IMG/VR virus record: IMGVR_UViG_3300031277_000010
Coordinates: 1-40,005 of that record
DNA: 40,005 nucleotides
Source of the DNA: a virus
Reading direction: 5' to 3' (one strand)
The position numbers were made by a program, and so were the translations under genes. This document shows positions 18,124 to 40,005 of the stretch, piece by piece (position 1 is the first letter of the stretch; the number at the start of each line of letters is the position of its first letter). The notes beneath the pieces were generated by a model. It made no database searches, had not been told where the DNA came from, and saw only the letters and a program-made list of their open reading frames with translations.

Positions 18124-18534
18124 TCATGGTTTCTTACCTTTTATATTGAATATATAGTCAATAAAACTATCGCAATATTCCTTTGCTGTTCTTCCATTTC
18201 CATCTTTCCATCCATCGCGCCATAAGTATTTCCATACTTTGCATTGATCCACCATGATATCAGAGTTAACATCGGTGTTATGGATACATATGAGAACTAA
18301 ACATTCTCTATTTACACTTTTATTGATGACATTGCATACACGCTCAAAAAACAATCTCTGCCCGTCATGGAATGGTGCATTAACTTTTTTTAGTTCAAGA
18401 AACACAAAACATCTGTCTCTTAATTCAAATGCTCCATCAATATCTGTCGGAGTAACCTTGCCATATCTGAAATGAGAATAATCTTTTACTTGCAATGATC
18501 TTTCTCTGAATTCTATTTGTCCGCGTTCAGCCAT
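18124..18534 (-). CDS. Putative PD-(D/E)XK-type nuclease
   Basis: A 136-residue protein with TPTDIDGAFELRDRCFVFLELKK (28-50). Asp at 'DIDG', then Glu-Leu-Lys in a beta strand, then GQRLFFERV make the D...ExK arrangement of PD-(D/E)XK nucleases such as resolvases and VRR-NUC-like enzymes. The C-terminus is basic. It overlaps the stop of the methyltransferase gene by eight bases and shares its AT-rich composition, so the two may have been gained together. It could process recombination intermediates or act with the methylase; catalytic activity is inferred. Confidence 0.6.
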   Translation of the reverse strand: MAERGQIEFRERSLQVKDYSHFRYGKVTPTDIDGAFELRDRCFVFLELKKVNAPFHDGQRLFFERVCNVINKSVNRECLVLICIHNTDVNSDIMVDQCKVWKYLWRDGWKDGNGRTAKEYCDSFIDYIFNIKGKKP

Positions 18535-19327
18535 TAATCAAAACCTTTCCGAATTCTCCGAATGCCTTTATAAATTTTTTGTATTTTTTCCCTATATATA
18601 TTATTGCTTGCCCTTGCAACGGTGCACCTTGATTTCCATCAGGATCGAGAAATTTAACTCTCCCTTTTATAAAACATATAGAACTTGAATATTCTATCAA
18701 TTCTTGAAACCATACCGTCTCGGTTGCATTATTTACCAATATACAGGCCTCGTCTACCTCACAATTCACTACTTTTTCTATTAACGCAGAACAAAACTCA
18801 GAACAAAGGGGTTGAGCATAAGGTGGATTCATCCATACACGCTTTCCCCATTTCTTTGAACGCCCATCGTCATCTTTTGTACAATATACCTTGGCTTCAA
18901 CTATTTTATTGGCCTTTTTACTACTAGCCGGATCAAAGTCTATTGCTCCCATAACGTCTTTGGCAGCCTTGATATATTCAGGCGGGGTATACCATTCGTT
19001 TTCACCTGAATTATTTGATACATGTGGCATGGTTTTTGTTTTAGCTGGGTCATTTGGCCCGCCTATTTCAAAGCCCATGCCAATCCATTTATTCGCCGTC
19101 CTTTTATTTATTCCTATTTCTTGGCAATACCCGCCCCATGTTTTTTCTCTCCATCTATTTCCATTTACGGATAATATCTCTCTTGCCGCCCATAACTCAT
19201 TAACTATCTCTATCGTTTTTACTTTCCAATCCGATACAGATAATTTCATTTTTTTTACAGAAGCTTCATAATTCCAATTACTCGGTATTTTGGGAATATT
19301 ATCGCATACTGCTAATTCTGTTTTCAT
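18527..19327 (-). CDS. Phage DNA N6-adenine methyltransferase (Dam-like)
   Basis: A 266-residue protein. The C-terminal 155 residues have the signature of phage N6-adenine methylases: EWYTPPEY (111-118), IDFDPASS (129-136) and catalytic WMNPPY (165-170), then QGQAIIYIG near the end. The N-terminal 100 residues contain an HTH-like stretch (GGYCQEIGINKRTANKWIGMG) that may bind DNA. The likely role is methylating phage DNA against host restriction or as regulation. It is AT-rich against the GC-balanced upstream genes, suggesting transfer. Start ATG abuts the preceding TAA (TAAATG). Confidence 0.88.
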   Translation of the reverse strand: MKTELAVCDNIPKIPSNWNYEASVKKMKLSVSDWKVKTIEIVNELWAAREILSVNGNRWREKTWGGYCQEIGINKRTANKWIGMGFEIGGPNDPAKTKTMPHVSNNSGENEWYTPPEYIKAAKDVMGAIDFDPASSKKANKIVEAKVYCTKDDDGRSKKWGKRVWMNPPYAQPLCSEFCSALIEKVVNCEVDEACILVNNATETVWFQELIEYSSSICFIKGRVKFLDPDGNQGAPLQGQAIIYIGKKYKKFIKAFGEFGKVLING

Positions 19328-22684: not shown

Positions 22685-23358
22685 CAAATCACCCCCACCC
22701 ATCCCTGTCCAAAGTACTGCATCCCGTTCCCGATGAAATTCTCCCACGGCGTGAGATCATGGTGAATCCCGAAGATGGCGAAGTCGCCGAGAAAATGAAG
22801 TTGCCACTGATGAACCCGCTCCGTGATGAGACCGCGAAGTTTGATCAGGTTCGTCTCTTCGCCCAAGGAAGAATCGTAGTGCCAAATGAAAACCGAGCAC
22901 GATTCCCATAGCCCGAACACGAGCAGGTCGTTTTCCATCCGCATGAAAAGATCAAATTCGCTCGCGTCGTAGGGGAACGCTTCATCGAGGGCGACCTTGT
23001 GGAGGATGGCAGATATTTCGAGGTAGAACGCAAGGTAGAGCGTAGGGTCCGGGTAGGAGAAGGCGTCGGCGACCATCGCCCCGAGGTCCAGGTTCGCGGC
23101 GTCAAGAGCAGCCTCGGCAGGCGTGGGGACGATTGAATTCTCGATCTGGAACAATTCGGAGTCGATGGCGTATTCCTCGTACCACGCAAAACCGAAGTCA
23201 TATTGAGCCTGCGCGTACTCGGCCACGGTTGGGTTGTTCACAGCCCCGCTGCCACTGCCCGGAGGGACGGGGGGATCAATGCCGCGGGTTGCCTGGATAT
23301 CAACGGCCCACGCTCCGGCGGCGAGAAAAAGAACGGCGAGAATGGTAAGGTACTTCAT
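22684..23358 (-). CDS. Secreted protein of unknown function (224 residues)
   Basis: Start ATG at 23358 follows AAAAGGAGAAATC. Residues 1-18 are a textbook Sec signal (MKYLTILAVLFLAAGAWA). The mature part begins with a Pro/Gly/Ser linker (DPPVPPGSGSGAV), followed by a helical, Trp/Phe-rich acidic domain (EYAQAQYDFGFAWYEEY, DPTLYLAFYLEISAILHK, VHQWQLHFLGDFAIFG). No known family is recognised. It lies between a methylase and small early genes, so it is probably an envelope-acting host-takeover, exclusion or lysis-related factor. Confidence 0.65.
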   Translation of the reverse strand: MKYLTILAVLFLAAGAWAVDIQATRGIDPPVPPGSGSGAVNNPTVAEYAQAQYDFGFAWYEEYAIDSELFQIENSIVPTPAEAALDAANLDLGAMVADAFSYPDPTLYLAFYLEISAILHKVALDEAFPYDASEFDLFMRMENDLLVFGLWESCSVFIWHYDSSLGEETNLIKLRGLITERVHQWQLHFLGDFAIFGIHHDLTPWENFIGNGMQYFGQGWVGVI

Positions 23359-24113
23359 GATTTCTCCTTTTCGTCCTCTATCGGGGTTGAAAATAACACT
23401 TCCTGGACTAACCGTTTCGCGGCTATTTCACAATACTTTTCTTCTATCTCGATCCCGATGGCCTTGCGGCCCAGGTCCTTCGCGGCTCTGAGCGTGGTGC
23501 CGCTGCCCATGAAGGGGTCGAGGCACCCTCTATCAAATACACATGCCTCTATAATAGGAATTACTAATTTTAAAGGAAATGTGCATGGATGATCGTTCTT
23601 GTCCATAGATGGTGTAATATCCCAAACGCTCATCAATTTATTTACTTTATCATTCCATTTTTCTGGTCTACCATAACATAACCAGTATTCGTGAGAAGGC
23701 GAAAATCTTCTGCAATTCAAAGCCATTGATCCTCTACGATTCCATACAACATCAGCATATAAATTAAAAAAACCATATATTTCTACCGGGTGTATTGCAT
23801 ATCCATCTCTATATCTCGTTTTATGATTTATCCAAACGCACGACGATTTTTTTAAAAATTCCTCTAAACATTTTCTTTGCCACCCCTGATATTCTGATTC
23901 TTTTCTGTTATCATAATAATTACCCTGCTTTTCCATCCATTTATTCACACCTGATTTTCTTTCTGCATGTATTCCTGATGGTTTAGCTTTAGGATTAAGG
24001 GTGTTATATGGAGGACTTGTTATTACAGCATCTACTTTATCCAATCCCGAAATGACGTCTAAGCAGTCACCATGATATATCGTTATTCCGTTGTGGTCGT
24101 AGTACGGCTTCAT
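23355..24113 (-). CDS. DNA methyltransferase, N4-cytosine/N6-adenine type (beta class order)
   Basis: A 252-residue enzyme with catalytic motif IV ITSPPYN (31-37) preceding the AdoMet-binding motif I CLDPFMGSGTT (197-207), the order of beta-class DNA methylases. HPCTFP (175-180) and the closing AIGIEIEEKYCEIAAKRL also fit. The DNA coding for residues 1 to about 197 is AT-rich, while the motif I segment to the stop has the richer GC of its neighbours, as if the gene were a mosaic. The expected role is protection of phage DNA or modification-based regulation. Target sequence unknown. Confidence 0.88.
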   Translation of the reverse strand: MKPYYDHNGITIYHGDCLDVISGLDKVDAVITSPPYNTLNPKAKPSGIHAERKSGVNKWMEKQGNYYDNRKESEYQGWQRKCLEEFLKKSSCVWINHKTRYRDGYAIHPVEIYGFFNLYADVVWNRRGSMALNCRRFSPSHEYWLCYGRPEKWNDKVNKLMSVWDITPSMDKNDHPCTFPLKLVIPIIEACVFDRGCLDPFMGSGTTLRAAKDLGRKAIGIEIEEKYCEIAAKRLVQEVLFSTPIEDEKEKS

Positions 24114-24717: not shown

Positions 24718-25016
24718 ATCTCCCTTCCATGTACCTTTTCGTGACATCCCTTGCACAGCGTAACCAACTTATCCGGAGAAGGCAGAATGCACTCATAGAT
24801 CGAATCAACCGCCTTGTCCCAATACTGCGTGCCTTCCGTGTGATGGACATGAACCATTACTTCCTTGCCCTTGGCTCTGCTTTGCTTTCTTCCGCATCTC
24901 TGGCATGTATAATCATCCCTCTTCAGGGCCGCCTGTCGTTCTCTGGATCGCAGCCATATTTTCCGTATGGCGTGCTTGATGATTGATCTTGGGGTGTATG
25001 GTAGGCGCTTGCCCAT
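24714..25016 (-). CDS. HNH endonuclease
   Basis: A 100-residue protein with DDYTCQRCGR (34-43; Cys38, Cys41), VHVHHTEG (56-62; HNH histidines) and KLVTLCKGCHEKVHG (83-97; Cys88, Cys91), a complete small HNH/zinc-finger nuclease. The ATG at 25016 overlaps the previous stop as TGATG. It is far from the terminase genes, unlike packaging-associated HNH proteins, so replication or free-standing endonuclease roles are both possible. Confidence 0.85.
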   Translation of the reverse strand: MGKRLPYTPRSIIKHAIRKIWLRSRERQAALKRDDYTCQRCGRKQSRAKGKEVMVHVHHTEGTQYWDKAVDSIYECILPSPDKLVTLCKGCHEKVHGREI

Positions 25017-25639
25017 CAAAACGGCGCTCCTTCCTCGACGGTTTCGAGCATGTTAGGGGCAATCGAATCCATGCGCTTGAAACACTTCTCAAAGTTGCCC
25101 TTTTCGATCTTGAATCCTTTCGCCTTGATCCGCTCCCGTGCCTCAAACGATTCCATGTGCCGCCTGTCGATCCACGTTTCGAAGTCCTCATGGCAACGCT
25201 TACCCTGGGCGTTCTCGAAGTGCGCCAGGGTATATGCACCGCTCTTTACTACGTCAGCAAGGATCGGAAGTCCCGGCGGTGTATTAGAGCATCCGCACCC
25301 GTAAGCAAGGGCCGCTCCGCTTGCGTGGTCCCGTCTGAGGAACACGAACCCAGGCGTTTCCTTGCAGCATCGGGCGCAGGGCGTGTAGGGCTTCACGGGA
25401 TCGCCTGGCTTATGACTCCCCTTGCGGATGGATATCAAGGCATCTCTGATATCGGATTGTGTAGGCAGCCACCTTGTGCCGGCGTTCAGGATACTTGATA
25501 AGGCCCTGTCCATCTCCTCCTTTGTTGGGTGTATCGCGTCGTACACGTCACGGAGAAGGCGGTTCTTCTGGCGCTGGCTGTACGTCCCGCGGCCCTCTTC
25601 GAGTTCTGATAGCGCGCTTATGAATTGGGCTTCGTTCAT
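25016..25639 (-). CDS. Candidate helicase loader / replication accessory protein with a zinc site
   Basis: A 207-residue protein one small gene after the initiator, in the place of lambda P relative to O. The N-terminus is helical (QFISALSELEEGRGTYSQR) and leads to RWLPTQSDIRDALISI, similar to the '(F/L)PT...I' segment of phage helicase loaders and G39P-type adaptors. A cysteine block follows: CARCCKETPGFVF and YGCGC. The C-terminal half is helical and basic. No ATPase motif is present. Assignment is by context and weak motif, so 'unknown replication protein' is a fair alternative. Confidence 0.4.
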   Translation of the reverse strand: MNEAQFISALSELEEGRGTYSQRQKNRLLRDVYDAIHPTKEEMDRALSSILNAGTRWLPTQSDIRDALISIRKGSHKPGDPVKPYTPCARCCKETPGFVFLRRDHASGAALAYGCGCSNTPPGLPILADVVKSGAYTLAHFENAQGKRCHEDFETWIDRRHMESFEARERIKAKGFKIEKGNFEKCFKRMDSIAPNMLETVEEGAPF

Positions 25640-25893
25640 GACTCCTCCTTCTCTGCCGCGTCGATTCCGAATTCAATAACAGTTTTTAACAAACACTTAT
25701 CACAGTAAAGTTTACCATTTTTCATATTGCATTCTCTGCCGCATGAGTCACAGGTGAACCCGTGCTCTTTTCGGTCCTGCTTTATAGCTATCCTTATCAT
25801 CGTTTCTAACATACCCGCTGTTAGTGTAACGTGCTCATCTATCCACCAAGAATAATTAAAATATTCTCTCACAAATTTCTTAACGTCCATCAT
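25636..25893 (-). CDS. Small zinc-ribbon protein (85 residues)
   Basis: ATGATG start at 25893 behind GGAAAGGAAGGA, overlapping the initiator stop. The N-terminal half is helical (FVREYFNYSWWIDEHV). The C-terminal half is a four-cysteine ribbon, CDSCGREC ... YCDKCLLK. It is AT-rich. Probably nucleic-acid or protein binding; function unknown. Confidence 0.6.
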   Translation of the reverse strand: MMDVKKFVREYFNYSWWIDEHVTLTAGMLETMIRIAIKQDRKEHGFTCDSCGRECNMKNGKLYCDKCLLKTVIEFGIDAAEKEES

Positions 25894-26819
25894 TCCTTCC
25901 TTTCCTTCTCCGCCCGCTCTCGGGCTCGTTGTTCCAAGACCTTTTGGTTTATCAGCTTTCGCTCTTCTTCCTTTTGCTGGTGGGCGTCCTTCTTTGCCGG
26001 CGGCTCGTATTGCCCATCGAGAACCCGGTCTATCGTTGGAGGCTCACCCTTCCCTGGCCGCAGAAGCCATGTCAGGCTCTTCCGATTGCTCCATTTCGAG
26101 TCGTCAACAAAAGGGACGAGATCTAGAGCCCGCTTGAACTTCTCAAGGAATTCAGGGTCTGCGTTCATCCTTGATCGGATCGTATCTGCGTAGGTTTGCC
26201 ACTTGAGGGATTGTCCGGAAACCTTGTTCCAGGATTCCACGCAAAGTATGATTTCTTGTTGATGATTTGAATTTGCTCTCTTCTTCTCCACTCCTTCTCC
26301 CCTCCTTCTCTTCTCCCCCTCCCCCTCCATCTCCTCCTCCTCCTCCTGCTCATTTCCCAAATCAGCGTCGCTCTTTTCTCCAATCAGCGACGCTCTTTTG
26401 CTTTTAGAGCGGCGCTCTTTCTTCTTTACAGCATCTATATTACTTCCTTCTTTTCCATATTTCTTTATATTAGAAGCAATTGCGCCTTTCCTTGCTATCT
26501 CTGATCTAAGTTCAGCTCTCGAAGCATAGGGGTTATGTGAACCCCAATCATGTACAAAAATACCATTTTTTTCATCTAGAAAACCGTTCCCTATTAGCGA
26601 TGAAATAAAGAGTCCTTTTCTGTCTTCCGGCCAGTCGATAGCGAGTTCTAGATCTTCAGGTGAGTATCTTTTGAGATTTCCCGATGGGTGGTTCATGGCA
26701 ACCCATATCCAGAATTTGATAAGATAGTAGAAGGCTTCATATCCAAGTTGGCGAATCAATTTCTTTGTTTTGAAATGATCGAGTAGTGTAACAGATATTC
26801 GAATATCTTTATTGGACAA
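25890..26819 (-). CDS. Replication initiator / replisome organiser (DnaD-like or lambda O-like)
   Basis: A 309-residue protein. The N-terminal 110 residues match phage replisome organisers: LIRQLGYEAFYYLIKFWIWV, AIDWPEDRKGLFISSLIGNG, FVHDWGSHNPYASRAELRS, a winged-helix domain. A lysine/glutamate linker (about 125-185) follows, then a C-terminal helical domain (CVESWNKVSGQSLKWQTY ... LTWLLRPG). Start is TTG at 26819, favoured by GGAGGAG seven bases upstream. The linker-coding DNA contains iteron-like repeats and a polypurine tract, so the protein probably binds an origin inside its own gene. No phage helicase or polymerase was seen; host enzymes are presumably recruited. Confidence 0.75.
   Translation of the reverse strand: MSNKDIRISVTLLDHFKTKKLIRQLGYEAFYYLIKFWIWVAMNHPSGNLKRYSPEDLELAIDWPEDRKGLFISSLIGNGFLDEKNGIFVHDWGSHNPYASRAELRSEIARKGAIASNIKKYGKEGSNIDAVKKKERRSKSKRASLIGEKSDADLGNEQEEEEEMEGEGEKRRRGEGVEKKRANSNHQQEIILCVESWNKVSGQSLKWQTYADTIRSRMNADPEFLEKFKRALDLVPFVDDSKWSNRKSLTWLLRPGKGEPPTIDRVLDGQYEPPAKKDAHQQKEEERKLINQKVLEQRARERAEKERKE
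26276..26480. other. Putative replication origin inside the initiator gene
   Basis: Three features adjoin: a 72-base pyrimidine tract with only two purines (26276-26347), the 22-bp-spaced iterons (26360-26420), and an AT-rich stretch (about 26424-26480) that could unwind. This is the lambda ori architecture. Function is inferred, not shown. Confidence 0.55.
26360..26416. repeat. Three iteron-like repeats at 22-bp spacing (putative origin)
   Basis: AATCAGCGTCGCTCTTTT (26360-26377) and AATCAGCGACGCTCTTTT (26382-26399) differ at one base. A third copy keeps AGCGGCGCTCTTT (26408-26420). All three contain the palindrome AGCGnCGCT, and the cores start at 26364, 26386 and 26408, exactly 22 bp apart. 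They lie in the initiator gene between its two domains, as lambda iterons lie inside gene O. Confidence 0.75.
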
Positions 26820-26891
26820 ACCGCCACTCCTCCGCAGCAAAAAGAGGGGCTTTGTGACGGCTATGGCGTATCTTCGCAGTATTCCCTTACT

Positions 26892-28703: not shown

Positions 28704-29609
28704 TTATATTTCCTCGTGCTGCGCTTCCTTCGTTCTGTAAAGCGCGTCATCGTCAATGCTCGCCTGTCCGATGCAAACCGGAATATATGGGCAGTTCCCG
28801 TAAAAACTCACGCATGAGTTGCAGTTACGCGGGAACCGTCCGTCCTTATTGCACGAGTGGAACATCTCTACTTGTTGCCAAAGATCAAGCCGGGCCTCGT
28901 TCATGTCGTCATCGGTCTTCGTGTACTCTCTCCACTGGTAGTATTTTGACGGCTCTTCCAGGATGTCTGATTCGATGCGGTTCTGATAGGCGTCCTCTGT
29001 TGTGATCCCTCGCTCCTTGGCTTCCTTCTCGTCTTTACCACACATCTTGATAGTGGGTCTTCTCACAACATCATAGATGAACCCGCGGGCTCCATATGAA
29101 AGGCAATAGTTGTTCATCTGCCCATCAATCTGTAAAATCTGCCAGTAGGTTCCGAACCCGAAGATTTCCTTCGTGGTCGTCTTGTGGTCGCATATCCAAA
29201 TTTCTCCGGTGTCCTTGTGCTGCAGGAGAACGTCGGCTTTTCCTTGGAGTCGATACCCGTAGAAGCTCTGCCCGCCCTTTGGGTTCCGGATCTTCGTTTC
29301 GAAGGTCGTTTCGATCCCAAGAATATTGTATTTGTCCTTCGGTGCATCATAGAATTTCAAGATGGCCGATATCTTTGCCGCGTCCTCCGGCTTGATTTCA
29401 TTTTCTGTCGCCATCTTTTTAAGAAGCTCTACCGATGCTTCCATCCCGTTCTGCCACCATGCCTCCATTGCCTTGTGAAAGAGGCTACCGAAGGAAATGG
29501 CATCCGATACTGAGACAGGCGCCCGTTGAAGCTCGAAGGCATAGTAGTACCTTCGCGGGCAGTCTCGAAATGTCGAAAGGCTCGATGATGTCAAATATTT
29601 GATTGCCAT
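28704..29609 (-). CDS. PD-(D/E)XK exonuclease with Fe-S cluster (RecB/AddB/Cas4-like)
   Basis: A 301-residue protein of the PDDEXK_1 type: STFRDCPRRYYYAFEL (12-27, Cys17), GSLFHKAMEAWW (41-52, His45), LQGKADVLLQ (Asp126), WICDHKTTT (Asp141, Lys143), then Gln164 in IDGQMNNYCLSYG. Cys263, Cys266, Cys273 and Cys279 (CNSCVSFYGNCPYIPVC) with Cys17 fit a 4Fe-4S cluster. Its neighbours are an SSB-like protein and a RecA-like ATPase, making a recombination module in which this enzyme would resect double-strand ends. Start ATG at 29609 follows CAGGAGATATC. Confidence 0.86.
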   Translation of the reverse strand: MAIKYLTSSSLSTFRDCPRRYYYAFELQRAPVSVSDAISFGSLFHKAMEAWWQNGMEASVELLKKMATENEIKPEDAAKISAILKFYDAPKDKYNILGIETTFETKIRNPKGGQSFYGYRLQGKADVLLQHKDTGEIWICDHKTTTKEIFGFGTYWQILQIDGQMNNYCLSYGARGFIYDVVRRPTIKMCGKDEKEAKERGITTEDAYQNRIESDILEEPSKYYQWREYTKTDDDMNEARLDLWQQVEMFHSCNKDGRFPRNCNSCVSFYGNCPYIPVCIGQASIDDDALYRTKEAQHEEI

Positions 29610-29659: not shown

Positions 29660-30127
29660 TTAGAACGGGGGTTCTTCACCGAGTTCGTTAATGGGTTTCA
29701 ATGTTCCTTGGGTTTTCTCTTTCTTTTGCTCATTCTGAATTTTGTGGAGCAACCCGTCGAACTTGGTCAGTGCCTTCGCCACGTCGTCATTCCCGCCGGG
29801 CTCCCATCCCTCGGGATAGACCCATCCGACCTTGGCGCGCATCGTCCCCTGGTATTCCTCCTGGCTCACCTTGATGACGCACTTGTTCCCAACCATGTTG
29901 TCACCATTGAGGTCGGACATCGAGGCTCCGGTGTATCCCATCGCGATGATCTTTTTCATCGAGTGCTCGATGGCACGGTCGGAAAGATAGAAAAACCCAG
30001 TCACATGTCCTTGCGTCGTCTGGAATTTCACGGCCAGATATGGCGTTGGTGTATTCTGTCCCTCGTCTACATAATGAGACAGGATGGTTGCTTCGTAGGT
30101 TCCTACTGGATGTATTGTGTCACTCAT
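29660..30127 (-). CDS. Single-stranded-DNA-binding-like protein
   Basis: A 155-residue protein starting at an ATGA overlap with the RecA-like ATPase gene. The beta-rich N-terminal 110 residues (VGTYEATILSHYVDEGQN, PYLAVKFQTTQGHVTGFFYL, GNKCVIKVSQEEYQGT) suit an OB-fold. A lysine-rich helix follows, and the chain ends INELGEEPPF, close to the acidic-Pro-Phe tip through which SSBs recruit partners. Similar proteins beside Sak4-like ATPases are thought to act as phage SSBs. Context and C-terminal tip support the call; family identity is uncertain. Confidence 0.6.
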   Translation of the reverse strand: MSDTIHPVGTYEATILSHYVDEGQNTPTPYLAVKFQTTQGHVTGFFYLSDRAIEHSMKKIIAMGYTGASMSDLNGDNMVGNKCVIKVSQEEYQGTMRAKVGWVYPEGWEPGGNDDVAKALTKFDGLLHKIQNEQKKEKTQGTLKPINELGEEPPF

Positions 30128-31059
30128 GATTTCACCTCTTCGGTTTCGGGTTTCTGGTTCTCCACCTGGATCTGGCGCAGGCGGTTCAAAACTTGCCTCA
30201 TTTTCGTCAACGGCGCGTCCTCGATCTTCTGGACGCCGAGCCACGCCATTGTCTTGTTCTGGGTGGGTTCGTCAAGCAGGTGCCAAAGTTCCTGTACTTC
30301 TTCCAGGGTTGCAGAGCCTTTGCCCAGGGCACCCTCAAGGGCTTCCCAGGACAAGTCCATCTCTTCGGGGAGCTCGTAGCCTACGCGGCATTTAGCGTCC
30401 TCTGCGGCGCTTCCTCGGCAGTAGAGCCGGCGGGTAGAGGTTCCCATTGCCCGTCCCTTCAAATCTCCCCTTTCCTTGATGATAGAATACTCGTAGTCAG
30501 CCCGTAAAACTATATCTGACCAAGCGAATACTTTTCCCCACACGGTTTTATCAACATCGGGAGCAAACTTCTGATAAGTTCCATCTATTGGATGTTGGAC
30601 GTTTTGTAGACCAGTATGAGCAAGCAATAAAATAGTCATGCCCCTTGCCCGGCAATCGTCGAGCAGGATAAGCAACTCGCGCATCCGCTCCGCTGTGGCT
30701 TTCCATCCCTGCCCCCATCCGAGGAATCCACCATCTCCTTTTTTCGCTGTCCATTGTCCACCGTACATCGTTGTACAAACGTGCTGAGCAGCGAGATCGA
30801 CTGCACCATTCAACGTGTCAATGACTACGGTTTTAAACTCGTGTTCATCCGTTGCCATTTCTTTTACGTTCGAAATGAATTCTTCCCAACTCTTCGCTTT
30901 GTCGAATGCCCAAACAGGGAGGTTATCAACCCCGTCCTCTGTCGCGACAAAACCAGGAGAGGGCGAATCCGCTCCTACTGTGGATTTACCGATTCCCTGC
31001 CGCCCATATAGGACGATTCGGGGAGGTCGGTATTTACCGCGTTTCATACCCTTGAGCAT
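30124..31059 (-). CDS. RecA-like ATP-binding recombination protein (Sak4 / AAA_24 type)
   Basis: A 311-residue protein: Walker A GRQGIGKST (19-27), Walker B VVIDT (78-82) and ILLLAHTG (143-150), with GSAAEDAKCRVGYELPEE late in the core. This is the layout of phage Sak4-type annealing ATPases. ATG at 31059 follows AAGGAG; a longer TTG-initiated form is rejected. With the adjacent SSB-like protein and exonuclease it should drive single-strand annealing or strand exchange during replication. Confidence 0.82.
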   Translation of the reverse strand: MLKGMKRGKYRPPRIVLYGRQGIGKSTVGADSPSPGFVATEDGVDNLPVWAFDKAKSWEEFISNVKEMATDEHEFKTVVIDTLNGAVDLAAQHVCTTMYGGQWTAKKGDGGFLGWGQGWKATAERMRELLILLDDCRARGMTILLLAHTGLQNVQHPIDGTYQKFAPDVDKTVWGKVFAWSDIVLRADYEYSIIKERGDLKGRAMGTSTRRLYCRGSAAEDAKCRVGYELPEEMDLSWEALEGALGKGSATLEEVQELWHLLDEPTQNKTMAWLGVQKIEDAPLTKMRQVLNRLRQIQVENQKPETEEVKS

Positions 31060-31070
31060 TGATTTTCTCC

Positions 31071-31271
31071 TTAACAATTAGAAAAACGTTCCATGACACC
31101 CATCACCGAATCTTCAACTTCTCGATGATGAGTTTCCCAGTACCGGAAGAATTCGGAATGATCGTACCACCAATCCATGGCCTCATCGTCGCACGAGCAG
31201 CGGAACTTTTCGTCGCAGTCGAGCGGCTTGCCGCAGGCTGGGCAGGAGCCGAATCGCGGGCTATATCGCAT
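31071..31271 (-). CDS. Small zinc-ribbon protein (66 residues)
   Basis: ATG at 31271 follows GAGGTGCAGA, overlapping the upstream gene by 11 bases. It contains CPACGKPLDCDEKFRCSCDD, a compact cysteine cluster, followed by an aromatic/acidic helix (MDWWYDHSEFFRYWETH). Likely zinc-binding; function unknown. Confidence 0.6.
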   Translation of the reverse strand: MRYSPRFGSCPACGKPLDCDEKFRCSCDDEAMDWWYDHSEFFRYWETHHREVEDSVMGVMERFSNC

Positions 31272-39741: not shown

Positions 39742-40005
39742 TTACCAAGCCCCTATTATTCCAAAACCGGATTTCTTGGCATAGGCAAGTTCCGGGATTA
39801 ACTGCTCGCGCACAAGCCTGCGTGAAAACTCGCTGCCGAAGTTGAATATATTGGTAGACGCGTCGCTGTACCCTCTGTTCCCCTGGGCATTGAGGGCCTC
39901 AAGGAGCGCCCGGTTCTGTTTCGTGGCCTCTGCATTCATGACGAACTCGCCACCGTGCGCCATAATCGGAATGGGCTGAGCCGTGTCGCCTTCGATGGGA
40001 CCACC
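39742..40005 (-). CDS. Phage tail tape measure protein, C-terminal end (same gene as 1-1558)
   Basis: This is the end of the tape measure gene, cut by linearisation. The shared 127-base overlap (39879-40005 equals 1-127) joins both pieces in one frame. The C-terminus carries AHGGEFVMNAEAT, then NIFNFGSEFSRRLVREQ, and stops at TAA. The next gene (distal tail protein) begins immediately after this stop. On the circle the two fragments should be annotated as one CDS of about 564 residues. Confidence 0.93.
   Translation of the reverse strand, partial: GGPIEGDTAQPIPIMAHGGEFVMNAEATKQNRALLEALNAQGNRGYSDASTNIFNFGSEFSRRLVREQLIPELAYAKKSGFGIIGAW
39879..40005. repeat. 127-bp terminal overlap, right copy
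   Basis: Exact copy of bases 1-127. See the left copy for interpretation. Trimming one copy gives a 39,878-bp circle. Confidence 0.9.

Follow-up and report, generated by a model that had tools for sequence, protein, structure and literature searches.

Three palindromic iterons inside the initiator gene point to a probable embedded replication origin in a 40-kb phage genome

Why should a phage replication gene carry, within its own coding sequence, three copies of one palindrome at a spacing of exactly 22 bp? Replication origins that lie inside initiator genes have been known from a few model phages, and a preliminary description of this locus, made from the sequence alone, had proposed a lambda-type origin embedded in the gene for a replisome-organiser-like protein. 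Whether the repeats are a DNA feature or a by-product of the encoded peptide, and whether their arrangement extends to related initiators, are the questions addressed here.

The window (the whole stretch of DNA analysed, 40,005 bases) is the entire virus record IMGVR_UViG_3300031277_000010. Its ends are joined by a 127-bp perfect direct repeat (1-127 = 39879-40005), and the record therefore amounts to a complete circular genome of 39,878 bp. The minus strand carries nearly all major genes, including the capsid and packaging genes at ~10-18 kb, and the initiator gene is found there together with the following genes:

30124-31077, minus strand: Sak4-type recombinase, upstream of the initiator
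28704-29609, minus strand: exonuclease, upstream of the initiator
25890-26840, minus strand: replication initiator gene of the replisome-organiser type (phrog_9474, phrog_3926 and homologues)
25016-25639, minus strand: 207-aa protein with Cys motifs, downstream of the initiator

Single-protein scans found no close relatives of the major capsid protein and no database relatives of the 207-aa downstream protein; the single-sequence fold of the latter was uninformative (pLDDT 39), and its N-terminal pattern is vaguely like that of phage helicase loaders. Two DNA methyltransferase genes are present (18527-19327 and 23355-24113, both on the minus strand), while a Phage_integrase-type gene was not found in the window.

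The initiator open reading frame encodes 316 amino acids, or 309 if translation starts at the TTG at 26819. This TTG, rather than position 26840, is likely to be the true start, since an AGGAG lies 7 nt upstream of it and the homologues begin there (MSTDARLSTGLP...HPKTKK). That the protein is replisome-organiser-like, as first described, was borne out by a match to phrog_9474, 'replication initiation protein' (E = 4.9e-9, residues 13-125, the N-domain with its HDW motif), by a structure-search match to a phage 'Replisome organizer' (E = 6.7e-9) and by the annotation of homologues. A match to phrog_3926 was also obtained (E 0.0019), as was a structure match to the 'replisome organiser N-terminal domain' of Streptococcus phage Abc2 (E 1e-3), while Pfam and NCBIfam gave no match to the initiator and a PDB fold search nothing significant (best E 0.11). 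In an AlphaFold2 model built on 40 aligned family members, the N-domain is confidently predicted (mean pLDDT 92-97 over residues 21-100), with helices at 23-32, 35-50, 61-67 and 77-84 and strands next; after it come a long helix to about residue 154, a linker predicted to be disordered and a C-terminal part whose helices are less certain. The N-domain is also the best-conserved part of the family, with the HxKTKKL and HDW motifs conserved among the 40 aligned members, and we read it as a predicted winged helix and the putative iteron-binding domain. The C-terminal part would be the putative helicase- or loader-interacting part. A DnaT-type DNA-binding domain occurs in 4 of the 40 relatives and is absent from the window protein. 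The two parts are encoded as follows:

26517-26807, minus strand: N-terminal domain, about residues 12-108, predicted winged helix (AlphaFold2 and family conservation)
25890-26270, minus strand: C-terminal part, predicted to be helical, with low-confidence segments (AlphaFold2)

The repeats lie 3' of the code for the putative DNA-binding domain, in the initiator's own gene, and encode about residues 140-163, the end of the long helix and the start of the linker. Direct reading confirmed three AGCGnCGCT cores, AGCGTCGCT (26364-26372), AGCGACGCT (26386-26394) and AGCGGCGCT (26408-26416), spaced by exactly 22 bp; the first two 18-mers (26360-26377 and 26382-26399) differ solely in their centre base. 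A motif search placed the iterons, numbered in coding order, as follows:

26408-26420, minus strand: iteron 1, AAAGAGCGCCGCT
26386-26398, minus strand: iteron 2, AAAGAGCGTCGCT, then GATT
26364-26376, minus strand: iteron 3, AAAGAGCGACGCT, then GATT

The dyad of iteron 1 reaches 13 bp (AGAGCGCCGCTCT, 26406-26418). All three AGCGnCGCT copies found in the 40-kb window are in this array, where 0.43 would be expected in the whole window and three were reached in 1 of 100 shuffles. A 22-bp step is not divisible by three, so that each copy falls in another reading frame, and the encoded peptides are accordingly ERRS, RAS and SDA. Iterons read in all three frames are a DNA feature, and a protein repeat is ruled out as their cause. 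When the local peptide was recoded synonymously with the phage's own codon usage, the three cores appeared in 2 of 200,000 recodings, and synonymous resampling of the whole gene gave them in none of 20,000. Because the AGCGnCGCT motif had been picked after being seen, we added a generic test for any three similar odd dyads at an equal spacing of 15-35 bp, which returned one array in the window, at the iterons, and none in 300 Markov-1 simulated genomes. The iterons are thus constrained at the level of the DNA and not by the peptide.

Read in coding order, on the minus strand, an AT-rich stretch is followed by the iterons and then by a purine tract, so that two flanking segments complete the locus:

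26424-26480, no strand assigned: AT-rich segment between the N-domain code and the iterons, candidate unwinding element
26276-26347, plus strand: pyrimidine tract (purine on the coding strand), encoding the E/K/R/G-rich linker (identified by composition)

Both had been described correctly as to composition. The AT-rich segment is 74% AT, a level met by just 0.45% of 57-base windows; an AT-rich flank is not conserved across the homologue set of the initiator family. The pyrimidine tract has pyrimidines at 70 of its 72 positions, and no other 72-base window in the genome is as asymmetric. An equally asymmetric tract nevertheless arises in 9% of synonymous-codon permutations (p = 0.09), and the asymmetry is therefore largely a consequence of the E/K/R/G-rich peptide. 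The tract is present beside the iterons, as had been stated, but the test gave no support for selection acting on it as DNA in this phage.

To set the array against related genes, relatives of the initiator were collected. Single-protein scans of sequence collections found no close relative, the nearest having N-domains ~45-50% identical. Distant relatives occur in phages of Paenibacillus, Microcystis, Faecalibacterium, Roseburia and Dolichospermum and in a Stenotrophomonas plasmid record; several homologues adjoin DnaC-like loaders, SSB, recombinases or dnaB, and homologues are annotated as 'replication initiation protein'. The families phrog_9474 and phrog_3926 also take in the initiators of Paenibacillus phage Harrison, Microcystis phage Mwe-Yong1318-1 and Faecalibacterium phage FP_Lagaffe. 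With profiles built from the distant matches, two scans recovered 139 loci and a search specific to the clade a further 115, among them prophages of Variovorax, Luteibacter, Stenotrophomonas, Zoogloea, Desulfovibrio and others. Once near-duplicates had been dropped, the set comprised 184 genes, of which 87, counting that of the window, belong to the window's clade. Viral contigs were also scanned with the tandem core and with one iteron alone; none of the 82 loci found encodes an initiator relative, and these loci therefore look like chance matches. In the literature searched, we found no paper describing an in-gene origin for the phrog_9474/phrog_3926 family.

All family tests were controlled by permuting synonymous codons gene by gene, so that both the protein and its codon usage stay unchanged. 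Among 111 homologues, 26 genes carry out-of-frame repeat pairs at a lag of exactly 22, against 0.8 expected. Lag peaks at 20, 25 and 40 bp were at first read as iterons as well, and proved to be mostly 5-nt tandem repeats further downstream. A 20-24 bp repeat was significant at p <= 0.01 in 39 of 184 homologues (1.8 expected), compared with 7 for the control lags of 26-30. Lambda O served as positive control, and its known iterons passed the 20-24 bp repeat test (p = 0.005); the lag is exactly 22 in 25 of the 40 significant genes, lambda O being one of the 40. The same permutation test found no 20-24 bp repeat in the gp20 gene of 80alpha, and some homologues have no repeats detectable under the permutation tests.

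Palindromes recur at the same place. In the window's clade, odd compact dyads with arms of at least 5 bp number 130 between +120 and +240 nt after the HDW motif, where ~14 are expected, with little excess over the expected number outside this interval; the window's own dyads are at +140, +162 and +184 nt. At least two dyads fall within the interval in 61 of the 87 clade genes (16.5 +/- 2.6 expected). Other clades have their dyad peak at +90 to +150 nt after HDW (39 against ~9 expected). Equally spaced dyad triples were found four times in the initiator genes of relatives and not once in 1.06 Mb of flanking DNA. TGCTAnTAGCA and AGCAnTGCT are the common dyads of the window's clade, the latter differing from the AGCGnCGCT of the window by one base per half-site.

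An alignment of homologues had been proposed as a check on the repeats. The place, the dyads and the 22-bp period do recur, whereas AGCGnCGCT itself could not be followed through the relatives, since none of them is close. The arrangement in the linker code is thus real and common to many genes, and the comparison shows that place, palindromic form and often the 22-bp spacing belong to the family, while the iteron sequence is private to clades. A clade-private sequence at a shared place is what would be expected if each initiator reads its own iterons.

Just beyond the dyads, many relatives carry a further repeated element. A 6-nt tandem tract is present in 67 of the 87 clade initiator genes, against 11 expected, and starts at a median of 237 nt past HDW. 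In 62 clade genes (loci among L232-L346) the unit is CCGTCT and encodes (Pro-Ser)n, these tracts ranging over ~195-280 nt past HDW. Serine is written TCT at 476 of 478 codons in these Pro-Ser tracts and at 261 of 1805 in the rest of the same genes; CCGTCT arrays of at least three units number 62 inside clade initiator genes, whereas 568 kb of flanking DNA has none. The window has no hexamer, and its purine/pyrimidine tract occupies the place of the hexamer tract of its relatives. Other clades (L090, L087, L197, L190 and others) have tandem tracts of 4-5 nt units, of the AACC, AGAGT and AACCT types, out of codon frame and ~130-190 nt after HDW; period-5 tracts were counted in 11 non-clade homologues against 0.4 by synonymous permutation. 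Slippage could create CCGTCT arrays, but their fixed place and unit are not readily explained thereby.

A reasonable guess from these patterns is that the (CCGTCT)n tract is possibly a second origin element, for strand opening or helicase loading. More broadly, we raise as a tentative and rather doubtful possibility that origins of this family are written in two parts, both hidden in the linker code: compact dyads that differ between clades and are spaced by two (or three) helical turns, and, just downstream, a short tandem tract, (CCGTCT)n in phages of proteobacteria and 4-5 nt units in others. In this view the initiator's C-terminal part, with a DnaT-type domain in some members, would recognise the tract in single-stranded form, as a sequence-specific element for opening or for helicase loading.

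What, then, is the array for? It might be thought a by-product of a low-complexity linker, raised by codon bias or slippage in a charged peptide, and the adjoining tract is indeed of low complexity, with an asymmetry that follows from the peptide (p = 0.09). Placement in three reading frames, the rarity of the cores among synonymous recodings (2/200,000), palindromic cores unlike slippage products and the family-wide enrichment of dyads under the synonymous control make this a very improbable account. Fainter still is the case for some other cis element, such as a packaging (pac) site, a partition site or an mRNA hairpin. Iteron 1 can form a 5-bp stem-loop on the plus strand (AGAGCGGCGCTCT, then T), but a terminator on that strand would serve no visible transcript, as all major genes are on the minus strand; an Rfam search gave no match, the terminase gene is ~9 kb distant, and at the equivalent place relatives have different palindromes, always in the initiator gene.

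Regulation deserves closer attention. The dyads could be sites at which the initiator, or a phage repressor, controls transcription or timing, with the origin elsewhere. Short palindromes with a 1-nt centre and a two-turn spacing suit operators too, and sequence tests of the present kind do not separate binding from origin function. Against this, the sites lie ~350-430 bp inside the gene, promoter-like sites occur at chance level (2 found, 2.2 expected), and the position is fixed relative to the protein domains in many lineages, as it is in lambda O. We consider such a regulatory role unlikely.

The best explanation is that the segment at about 26276-26480 is, very probably, a phage replication origin embedded in the initiator gene. 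By analogy with characterised phage origins, we infer origin activity itself together with protein binding, strand opening and helicase loading. Dimers of the initiator would use the predicted winged-helix N-domain to bind the three palindromic iterons and, as the iterons are two helical turns apart, would stack on one face of the DNA. The resulting complex would wrap and strain the neighbouring DNA, the AT-rich side (26424-26480) would open, and the C-terminal part of the initiator would bring the replicative helicase, so that theta replication starts. That helicase is probably the host's, since searches of the phage yielded neither DnaB nor DnaC homologues (neither DnaB_C nor DnaC/IstB was matched, and no helicase or recognisable loader was identified). 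The lack of a helicase and loader also counts against the origin reading, as do the AT-rich flank not conserved in the family, the homologues in which no repeats were detected and the want of a close relative in which to follow AGCGnCGCT. As the iteron sites sit in the linker code, the linker peptide would be shaped by the DNA. GC skew, which had been suggested as a further check, did not point to this locus; at four-fold sites it shifts at ~32 kb and ~8 kb rather than at 26.4 kb, going from ~0.2 to ~0.02 in between. It cannot place the origin, because nearly all genes point one way and skew is a weak guide in a one-strand phage genome.

With the protein held fixed in the statistical test, the same layout recurs across a large initiator family that has been little studied and is found in phages of Proteobacteria, Firmicutes and Cyanobacteria. 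Within it, iteron sequences vary by clade, but their place and, in many cases, the 22-bp spacing are retained. This offers a way to predict origins, and pairs of initiators and their sites, from the genome text. The locus also offers a clear example of DNA needs dictating a protein linker, and the hexamer tract of the relatives is a new and easily testable candidate origin element.

In the DnaA-trio and the single-strand repeats of DNA unwinding elements (DUE) at chromosomal and plasmid origins, short tandem repeats adjoin double-strand binding sites (PMC10797057). The 4-6 nt tandem tracts beside the dyads of the relatives resemble this arrangement, but their units contain GC and lie within a coding region, and single-strand binding is putative for them.

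Closer parallels are found in phage initiator genes. In lambda, the proven origin iterons lie within the O gene and are bound there by O (PMC7466680); in SPP1, gene 38 (G38P) holds a proven origin with initiator-bound direct repeats and an AT-rich region (PMC6316719), and the binding of in-gene repeats by phage initiators is also treated in PMC5499656. G38P was compared by its published description, and the putative origin of 80alpha by its rep_origin annotation. No homology was detected between the window initiator and either lambda O (hhalign probability 0.1%, E 0.69; the phrog matches of the two, phrog_277 for lambda O, do not overlap) or gp20 of 80alpha. The description 'lambda-type' accordingly fails as to homology. 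It fails also as to iteron anatomy, lambda having 18-mers with half-sites set apart (TCCCT...AGGGA) and the window 9-13 bp dyads with a 1-nt centre, and as to the AT-rich side, which is 3' of the iterons in lambda and 5' in the window. Unlike lambda, moreover, the window phage has no recognisable P homologue, and unlike SPP1, which encodes its own helicase and loader, it has neither that we could find. What holds is the layout. As in the lambda origin (PMC7466680), several iterons about two helical turns apart (starts 20, 24 and 23 bp apart in lambda, 22 and 22 in the window) occupy the central part of the initiator gene, from nt 348 onward in lambda O and from ~nt 420 in the window gene, beside an AT-rich flank (78% after iteron 4 in lambda, 72-74% in the window, where it is a candidate unwinding element). 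As in SPP1 oriL (gene 38) and the putative origin in 80alpha gp20, direct repeats and an AT-rich region lie inside the initiator gene (PMC6316719, PMC5499656). These comparisons support the view that the locus would work like ori-lambda and SPP1 oriL, with a likeness to lambda that is one of layout, not of homology.
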